Source: Rhodoflexus caldus
GTDB lineage: Bacteria; Bacteroidota; Bacteroidia; Cytophagales; Thermoflexibacteraceae
DNA: 64,000 nt
Direction: 5' to 3'
Assembly (NCBI RefSeq): GCF_021206925.1
Contig: NZ_JAJPRF010000001.1
Coordinates: forward strand, 62,001-126,000
Below the pieces are notes generated by a model. That model was not told the DNA's origin. It worked only from the letters and a program-made list of their open reading frames with translations, and did not search any database. Positions 33,891-36,178 of this stretch are shown piece by piece. Numbering within the stretch: position 1 is the first letter of the stretch; the number at the start of each line of letters is the position of its first letter. The translations under genes were made by a program, and so were the position numbers.

Positions 33891-34256
33891 CTAAATCTGT
33901 TCCAGCTCATCGGCAACTTCATCCATCGTGCGATTATTCTCGGGGTTTTCATCGCGGATGGCCTCCATTTCCTGCTGTACGATGCGCAAGATGCGAGCAA
34001 TATAGGCTGCGTGCCAGCGCTGCCGCTCTTCTTCGCTTTTTGGGTCGGGGCGGTAGGCTTCTATGTCGGCGCGAGAGAGCGTACCTTTGGCTTCCAACAG
34101 GCGCTCAATGGTATCTAAGCGTTCGTGTACGACGGCCAGTTCGCCGGCTACTGCCATGGTAATGTTCAATACGCGCTCTACTGCTGCATCGTCAAAAAAG
34201 TAAGGACGTTTGCCCTTGGCCTTGCTGTTGGCAAGTACTATGTCGTTGATTTCCAT
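33891..34256 (-). CDS. Small acidic protein of the methyltransferase operon, unknown function
   Basis: A 121-residue soluble protein. The sequence includes RPYFFDDAAVERVLNITMAV and AVVHERLDTIERLLEAKGT, then helical charged segments with WHAAYIARILRIVQQEM. It looks all-helical, with a possible dimer-forming helix at about 30-60. It begins 9 bases after the methyltransferase stop, so the two are almost surely cotranscribed, and it could be an accessory subunit. I recall similar small proteins beside methyltransferases in proteobacteria, but cannot name a family. Confidence 0.75.
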   Translation of the reverse strand: MEINDIVLANSKAKGKRPYFFDDAAVERVLNITMAVAGELAVVHERLDTIERLLEAKGTLSRADIEAYRPDPKSEEERQRWHAAYIARILRIVQQEMEAIRDENPENNRTMDEVADELEQI

Positions 34257-34265
34257 ATCGTTTCG

Positions 34266-35465
34266 TTATTTTTTCCATGCCCCGAATACATTCCATACCG
34301 CTGCTCTGCCGTGGTCTTCCGGCTCGGGAGCACGTGGTTTGGTGTGGTCTTCGTTGTCGTTCACTGCCCGCACACCAATTTGGAAGAAGTTTTCTGCTTT
34401 GAAGCCCGCTTGGGTCATCAGTTCTACCGTATCAATGTCGTGCATTTTAGACCAGAACGGCTCGTTGTTGTAGAATGCATCCCAATCGCGGATGAATTGC
34501 TCGTACAAATCCATTTCGGGTGTGTACTGCGGTTGCTCAATGTGCATGGTCAGACCGCCCGGCTTCAGCATCCGATAAATTTCCTTCATAATGCCGTGGA
34601 TAGATTTACCGGAAGTTTCGTGCAGGAACATAGTCGTCTGAATCCAGTCAAAACTTTCATCGGGGAAACCCGTAAACTGCCCGTCCATTTGGATAAACTT
34701 CACGTTGGTAATGCCCATGGCTTGTGCGCGGGCGTGTCCATAGCGTAACATGGGTGCACCTACATCTATGGCAATCACCTCTGCATCGGGATAAGCCTGT
34801 GCTATCGGCAGAACGTTGTGCCCCAGCCCACAACCGATGTCTAAAATGCGCTTCGGCTTGAACTCAGGATGATGCGAAAGCAACCATTGTGCAATGGCTT
34901 TTCCGCCGCCATCGTTGAAACGCCCCAGTGCTCCACCTGTGGTAACAAACAAGCCCATGTCGTAGTTGGCAGCCGCCGAAACGTCGCCCTCAAATAGTTC
35001 TGTGTGATAGCTGCCCGGCATGAGGTGGTTGTCCACTTTGGCAATATAAGGCGGAATGGTCAGGTTGGGGTTGAGTTGGAGGGTATCTTTGCCCGCATTG
35101 AGCTGCGCTGCCTTTTCGGCCAATTGCTTTGCCTGACGCAGCACAAGCGAACGCCCTGCCTGCTGACGCATTTCCATAGCCGCGCGGCGCAGCGCACTCC
35201 ACGTTTGGAAATGAGGGTCTCTCAACATGGCTTCACGCACCTCGCGGCGGTTTTCAAAATCGCGCCCTTTTTCACGGCGAAAACGCGGACGCACACGCTT
35301 GTCAAAAGCAATGCGGTTGCCCGGAGAAACCATTGTTGCCAAATGCTTATTCAAATTGGACAAGAAATTGAAACGCGCAATTTCGTCGTGGCTTGCCTCC
35401 GGTGCCACCTCGTGTTTGCCGATGCGATGCCATGCAGGCGGCACATTAATTGGTGCTTGGTTCAT
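34266..35465 (-). CDS. Class I SAM-dependent methyltransferase
   Basis: A 399-residue enzyme with a helical N-terminal region of about 180 residues followed by a Rossmann methyltransferase domain: motif I RILDIGCGLGHNVLPIAQ, motif II VIAIDVGAPML, the FIQMDGQFTGFPDESFDWIQ segment, and LKPGGLTMHIEQP. The motif set matches small-molecule (ubiquinone, terpenoid or polyketide type) methyltransferases more than nucleic-acid ones. The long N-terminal domain resembles those of natural-product methyltransferases. Its operon has an upstream palindromic operator shared with the DUF3598-like gene. The substrate is unknown. Confidence 0.85.
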   Translation of the reverse strand: MNQAPINVPPAWHRIGKHEVAPEASHDEIARFNFLSNLNKHLATMVSPGNRIAFDKRVRPRFRREKGRDFENRREVREAMLRDPHFQTWSALRRAAMEMRQQAGRSLVLRQAKQLAEKAAQLNAGKDTLQLNPNLTIPPYIAKVDNHLMPGSYHTELFEGDVSAAANYDMGLFVTTGGALGRFNDGGGKAIAQWLLSHHPEFKPKRILDIGCGLGHNVLPIAQAYPDAEVIAIDVGAPMLRYGHARAQAMGITNVKFIQMDGQFTGFPDESFDWIQTTMFLHETSGKSIHGIMKEIYRMLKPGGLTMHIEQPQYTPEMDLYEQFIRDWDAFYNNEPFWSKMHDIDTVELMTQAGFKAENFFQIGVRAVNDNEDHTKPRAPEPEDHGRAAVWNVFGAWKK

Positions 35466-35492: not shown

Positions 35493-35515
35493 AATAGTTA
35501 ATCACATTAATTATT
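35493..35515. promoter_or_regulatory. Palindromic operator before the methyltransferase operon
   Basis: AATAGTTAAT, three bases, ATTAATTATT: 10-base arms with one mismatch, 28-50 bases before the start codon. It overlaps a possible -7 region (CTATTTG on the minus strand). The same site occurs at 36152-36178. A second small palindrome, GCGTAAGTTACGC, lies next to it at 35524-35536. Confidence 0.65.
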
Positions 35516-35559
35516 GTATATAAGCGTAAGTTACGCGAAATTGTTTGGCTTTAAAAGCA

Positions 35560-35591
35560 AAGAAGAAAACTTCAAGGAAAGTTTTCTTCTT
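35560..35591 (-). terminator. Terminator between the DUF3598-like gene and the methyltransferase operon
   Basis: AGAAGAAAACTT and AAGTTTTCTTCT form a perfect 12-bp stem with a 6-base loop, 59 bases after the stop of the DUF3598-like gene. It ends in a T-rich stretch on the minus strand, so the two units are transcribed separately. Confidence 0.7.
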
Positions 35592-35649
35592 TCAGATTGA
35601 CACATCTTGATTGTTGTAATTTAAACTTGGGTAATGAACTTACCCAAGC

Positions 35650-36090
35650 CTAATCAATGGCTTCCTGAGGTGCTACACGGCGTTCTTCAATCATCGTGAG
35701 CCCTTCAAATTTTCCGTTGCGGCTGTGCTGCCAAGTACGCATCCGATGCCCGTCTTCCAACAAAGTAATAATCTCGTACAGGTGCGTGCCGGGCTGTTCA
35801 TTGTATTGCCATTCCAAACAGATAACATCGCCTGCTTCCCACGCCTTGCCGATGATGCGCTTGTTGTCGTAGTGCAGAATGCCCTTCTCATCAAAAGGCG
35901 ATGCGCCGAAATCGTGAACTTCTTTTTTTCCGTTGTCCCATGTGTATTCATTTTTCTGAATCCACTGGTTGTCCTTCATTTTCAGGAACAAACGGCTTTT
36001 GTGGCGGTCAATAACCTCTCCCTTTTCATTCAGGCGGGTGTAAGTGCCTTCCCAGATACCGGTGTGAGCTTCAAAAAGTGGCAATTTCAT
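35650..36090 (-). CDS. DUF3598/lipocalin-like protein
   Basis: A 146-residue beta-rich protein beginning MKLPLFEAHTGIWEGTYTRL. The pattern of FxxHxGxWEGTY, VIDRHKSRLFLKM and later repeated strands (KRIIGKAWEAG, YEIITLLEDGHRMRTW) resembles the calycin-like DUF3598 group, some of which bind bilins or lipids. No signal peptide is present. The ATG at 36090 is preferred over one 18 codons upstream because the family starts near the FxxHxGxW motif. It has the same upstream palindrome as the methyltransferase operon, suggesting joint control. The ligand and reaction are unknown. Confidence 0.7.
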   Translation of the reverse strand: MKLPLFEAHTGIWEGTYTRLNEKGEVIDRHKSRLFLKMKDNQWIQKNEYTWDNGKKEVHDFGASPFDEKGILHYDNKRIIGKAWEAGDVICLEWQYNEQPGTHLYEIITLLEDGHRMRTWQHSRNGKFEGLTMIEERRVAPQEAID

Positions 36091-36151
36091 GGCTAAAAAT
36101 CGTTTTAGTGTAAAAGGAATGTTTGCTGGTATAAAGGTAAGCATTTTTCCT

Positions 36152-36178
36152 AAAATAGTTAATTAGATTAACTATTTT
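36152..36178. promoter_or_regulatory. Palindromic operator in the divergent DUF3598-like/STAS-like region
   Basis: AAAATAGTTAAT and ATTAACTATTTT form perfect 12-base arms around TAG. It lies 62 bases before the DUF3598-like start (minus) and about 100 bases before the STAS-like start (plus). The core matches the site at 35493-35515, so one dimeric regulator (MarR- or TetR-sized site) probably binds both. Confidence 0.7.

Follow-up and report, generated by a model that had tools for sequence, protein, structure and literature searches.

A palindromic DNA site marks about 20 genes and operons, foremost of branched-chain amino acid synthesis, in a Bernardetiaceae genus: a candidate MarR-family regulator

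The palindrome AATAGTTAAT-N3-ATTAACTATT, which occurs twice in the window (the whole 64-kb stretch of DNA that was analysed), is well supported as a real regulatory DNA site, found far beyond chance, and marks a predicted regulon of about 20 genes or operons, foremost those of leucine, isoleucine and valine synthesis. The evidence consists of the motif, its genome-wide enrichment, the sites kept before orthologous genes, a site in the promoter of a MarR-type gene and, in a second genus, the association of the motif with leu/ilv genes. The operator binder is best read as a dimeric MarR-family repressor, closest to MepR of Staphylococcus aureus, and a MarR protein encoded in all four genomes of the genus is probably the one that binds these operators.

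Two operators and their genes in the window

The consensus was matched perfectly at one place and with one mismatch at another, which confirms the two palindromes originally noted (the 12-base arms of the perfect one follow from the sequence), and both lie upstream of minus-strand genes, one before a DUF3598 gene and one before a methyltransferase gene. At up to three mismatches these were the only two matches in the window, with 0.01 expected. The features are as follows.

36154..36176, no strand assigned: operator 1, AATAGTTAATTAGATTAACTATT, perfect 10-3-10 palindrome, promoter of the DUF3598 gene
35650..36090, minus strand: DUF3598_N protein, 146 aa (Pfam DUF3598_N, E=3e-10), conserved start ATGAAATTGCC
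about 35562..35589, minus strand: terminator-like hairpin, GAAGAAAACTT-N6-AAGTTTTCTTC with a T-rich tail, between the DUF3598 gene and operator 2
35493..35515, no strand assigned: operator 2, AATAGTTAATCACATTAATTATT, one mismatch, promoter of the methyltransferase operon
34266..35465, minus strand: class I SAM-dependent methyltransferase, 399 aa, regulon member (Methyltransf_25, E=1.2e-21)
33891..34256, minus strand: small acidic protein, 121 aa, second gene of the methyltransferase operon

The true start of the DUF3598 gene is probably 36090, which is common to the four genus genomes in the alignment, and the 164-aa ORF reaching to 36144 would be an over-extension; counted from this probable start, operator 1 lies 63 bp from the ATG, and operator 2 lies 27 bp from the methyltransferase start at 35465. 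The methyltransferase gene and the 121-aa ORF are separated by 9 bp and stay adjacent in two genomes (G001 and G002); a Pfam search gave no family match for the acidic protein. The terminator that had been placed between the two units corresponds to the T-rich hairpin listed above, which is kept in the four-genome alignment and was missed by a simple consensus terminator scan.

Among public genomes, relatives of the DUF3598 gene were found in Bernardetiaceae/Cytophagales MAGs. A homologue with 67% identity was also seen in a Candidatus Kapaibacterium MAG (L100:3001-3426), with no motif nearby within 6 mismatches, and is possibly a case of gene transfer.

Enrichment of the motif and the genes that it marks

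The motif was enriched over its reversed control and not randomly placed when the whole genome was searched, a check that the original prediction had proposed. At up to three mismatches it was found at 13 places in the 3.96-Mb genome G000 (reversed control 0), and the four genus genomes held 13, 9, 11 and 9 such sites (reversed control 0, 0, 1 and 0); a relaxed form of the motif gave 28, 25, 18 and 21 sites against 3, 7, 6 and 6 in the reversed control. At up to one mismatch the motif was present in 4 of the 59 genomes, every one of them in the genus. Five of the 13 sites in G000 are near-copies within one tandem array of GLPGLI-like genes. The 18 places in G000 within one mismatch of the relaxed form are all intergenic except one, which lies inside a doubtful 117-aa ORF, and five places with two mismatches to that form are intragenic and probably due to chance.

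The motif is kept before orthologous genes, as both sites of the window recur in all four genus genomes: operator 1 is a conserved island in the alignment, and operator 2 is retained with variants. Also in all four genomes, a site precedes leuC, ilvB, DUF3598A, the methyltransferase gene, DUF3598B with its aconitase-like operon, and a gene for a GH3 protein; ilvB, identified as acetolactate synthase (NCBIfam, above cut-off), carries its site inside the leu/ilv operon. About ten more gene groups share a site in two to four genus genomes. The site was found in two or three genomes at the following genes.

Malic enzyme, hydantoinase-B-like protein, FAD-binding protein with a 372-aa orphan
Flavin amine oxidase, glyoxalase-like protein, polysaccharide deacetylase
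TonB/SusC receptors, GLPGLI-like genes

The “small regulon” of three genes that had been proposed was therefore too narrow, since the motif stands at about 20 units, which include leuCDBA-ilv, malic enzyme and the hydantoinase-B-like protein as well as flavoenzymes, TonB/SusC receptors and a GLPGLI-like array. The leuC promoters of other genera were without the site.

Two marked loci were recorded in their own right. At L017:8597-14559 there is a five-copy tandem array of small secreted proteins and GLPGLI/Porph_ging-like genes, each unit with a near-identical promoter that carries the motif. The operon behind the DUF3598 paralogue (L014:906-5491) encodes aconitase/homoaconitase-like large and small subunits, an HpcH/HpaI aldolase and a HapK-like protein, and looks like an uncharacterised pathway.

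Relative to the -7 boxes, which we inferred from a Bacteroidota consensus of general knowledge, the site lies upstream of or overlaps the promoter in the DUF3598 genes and lies downstream at leuC, a variable placement that suits a repressor. The downstream position at leuC, together with a 10-bp stem and 3-nt loop located 7-63 nt from most start codons, could also point to a role of the palindrome at the RNA level, as a hairpin of the 5' leader. However, at DUF3598B a conserved TACATTTG -7 box follows the palindrome, which would therefore not be transcribed, several copies are situated between divergent genes, and departures from pairing have no strand preference (21 G-U vs 17 C-A on the sense strand); the hairpin reading was rejected on position and pairing, and we consider it extremely improbable.

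A candidate MarR regulator with the site in its own promoter

A MarR/TetR-type gene whose own promoter holds the site had been named as something to look for, and one of the MarR type exists, which makes it the best candidate.

G000:C22:33612-34103, minus strand: candidate MarR regulator, 165 aa, in one operon behind a monocarboxylate-type MFS transporter

The MFS-MarR operon is present in all four genus genomes (85-100% identity), and in its promoter TTTTGCTTAACYTAATTAAC forms a conserved island within diverged intergenic DNA in all four. In G001 a motif copy precedes the operon, and the G000 copy matches less well (3 mismatches to the relaxed form). On a palindromised PWM that was built from 16 other site groups, with the MFS-MarR sites excluded, the MFS-MarR promoter sites scored 15.0-20.9 bits. 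Among 433 background upstream windows four scored above 9 bits, at 14-23 bits, all of them resembling further sites, and the remainder stayed below 9; in a Markov background of 2 Mb none reached 18 bits.

The predicted winged helix of the protein is recognised by Pfam (MarR_2, E=4.4e-13, 49.6 bits vs a cut-off of 27; MarR, 36.2 vs 24.6), and the top PDB matches of its AlphaFold2 model (pLDDT 88.8, pTM 0.83), namely MepR, HpaR, ST1710 and YusO, have the MarR fold. In the D-x-R-R wing, D107, R109, R110 and K111 are invariant across 13 homologues. The best match of the MFS partner, below cut-off, is an L-lactate transporter model, and a carboxylate ligand of the candidate MarR is for this reason a guess. 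The genus has a further MarR (158 aa, L169-L172), which was rejected as the regulator because no site lies close upstream of it.

MarR and Lrp/AsnC were the regulator families compared as binder. Lrp controls leu and ilv genes in E. coli, and an Lrp/AsnC protein was first favoured here for its branched-chain amino acid targets. The binder would then be the feast/famine regulator L018:7607-8089, the only Lrp/AsnC protein common to all four genus genomes; the content of the regulon (branched-chain amino acid synthesis and uptake) is Lrp-like, and in three genomes the lrp gene has a motif copy at about 600 bp upstream (a weaker copy with 4 mismatches in the fourth), although two RNA-like elements and a terminator stand in between and the site is not evidently in lrp's own promoter. 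The recognition-helix segment of this Lrp, SGGTVHVRMKKLEK, is identical among the aligned family members, yet those without the MarR have no motif enrichment, and the leuC promoters of members that share the helix are without the motif. Because family members that do not have the motif carry an unchanged recognition helix, Lrp was demoted and is unlikely to be the binder. A second Lrp, present in only 2 of the 4 genus genomes, was also rejected.

The two RNA-like elements between the motif copy and lrp/asnC occur in all four genus genomes as a tandem pair, each of 150-170 nt and strongly folding, and end in T-arm-like GGTTCGAATCC; Rfam gave none at gathering score and ARAGORN made no call.

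L018:7068-7472 (minus strand), L037:5145-5538, L044:2223-2578 and L081:2115-2508: tandem RNA-like elements

A regulator of another type (e.g., TetR, LysR or Rrf2) is quite unlikely. The shape of the palindrome is compatible with all three, TTAAT-N3-ATTAA also matches the LysR-type T-N11-A dyad, and an Rrf2 sensor could suit the Fe-S enzymes among the targets (leuCD, IlvD and the aconitase-like protein), but no regulator genes stand beside the inspected sites except those of the MarR operon and the distant lrp, and such a binder would leave unexplained both the site in the MarR promoter and the enrichment in the second genus.

Motif and MarR in other genomes

In this second genus (genome G009), which has a MarR orthologue at 62-63%, the motif was found 11 times against 1 in the control. 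Of its two best sites, one stands immediately before ilvB and the other between leuD and leuB, 55 bp before leuB; the MarR gene there is without an MFS partner, and no site of its own is evident. Seven genomes of the family without a close MarR showed no clear enrichment (motif/control 9/13, 9/8, 17/21, 10/12, 25/23 and 16/17, with one genome reaching 31/19 in the relaxed scan). In G007 (MarR at 55%) there were 13 motif sites against 55 in the control. The families f2 and f14, the genomes of which are AT-rich, have MarR homologues at 46-50% but no motif enrichment, and their site contexts are not those of branched-chain amino acids; among the distant genomes with such homologues, G125 has one site before a diaminopimelate decarboxylase-like gene. 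Some of the distant homologues without enrichment share the recognition-helix core ALNVSRPNITN. Since the distant homologues are unenriched, the motif does not accompany MarR everywhere, which is the kind of argument that was held against Lrp above: the two correlate well close to the genus but no longer do so farther away.

Comparison with known regulators and proposed mechanism

The nearest solved relative of the candidate MarR, by sequence (E about 1e-8) as well as by fold (chains of the DNA complex 4LLN, TM 0.70-0.74 by query), is MepR, the MarR-family repressor of mepRA in S. aureus. MepR binds pseudo-palindromes with GTTAG half-sites (PMC3617543, PMC8044140), which resemble the GTTAA half-site here. 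It is co-transcribed with a transporter and self-repressive; the candidate MarR likewise lies in a transporter operon and, with the site in its own promoter, is predicted to repress itself. However, the two proteins share only about 25% identity, and MepR is known from two promoters in a drug-efflux locus, while the motif here stands at about 20 metabolic and envelope units. Orthology to MepR (a mepRA locus with a MATE pump) was not found at this identity, and the neighbours are monocarboxylate/efflux-type MFS transporters. In regulon logic, leu/ilv synthesis plus uptake, the system is like the Lrp/AsnC feast-famine regulators, but these belong to another protein family, and the conserved Lrp of the genus fits the motif distribution poorly. 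CodY of Firmicutes, a global regulator with branched-chain amino acid synthesis as a core target (e.g., PMC5794164), is an unrelated protein, alike in role only.

We infer that each AATAGTTAAT half-site would receive one winged helix of a MarR homodimer, in the way that MepR contacts its GTTAG half-sites. Repression would most likely be achieved by promoter overlap at the DUF3598 genes and at the MarR's own operon, and by blocking early transcription at leuC, and a metabolite would presumably release the protein from its operator. The regulon would have its centre in branched-chain amino acid synthesis (leuCDBA-ilvE-ilvD-ilvBN) and extend to the DUF3598, methyltransferase and aconitase-like units, malic enzyme, flavoenzymes and outer-membrane receptors. 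With respect to the single dimeric repressor that the original prediction had proposed for both units, one dimeric regulator is supported, and repression itself is, like the ligand and the MarR as binder, what we infer. That the marked genes modify or sense a small molecule had one ground, namely that MarR proteins are usually ligand-responsive.

Significance

MarR proteins are usually regarded as local switches that control efflux or the breakdown of aromatic compounds. A search of open-access literature, incomplete in its coverage, turned up no description of a MarR protein that regulates branched-chain amino acid synthesis in Bacteroidota. We give about even chances to the broader proposal that, in one genus of the Bernardetiaceae and in a second, neighbouring one, a MarR-family protein is a global regulator of branched-chain amino acid synthesis and of about 20 further metabolic and envelope units, a role held elsewhere by Lrp or CodY, with the DUF3598, methyltransferase and aconitase-like units in the same metabolic programme. 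If true, a MarR operator at leu/ilv synthesis and at many other units would represent an unusual global role for the family, and uncharacterised families (DUF3598, the aconitase-like operon and the 372-aa orphan) would be placed in one regulated programme.
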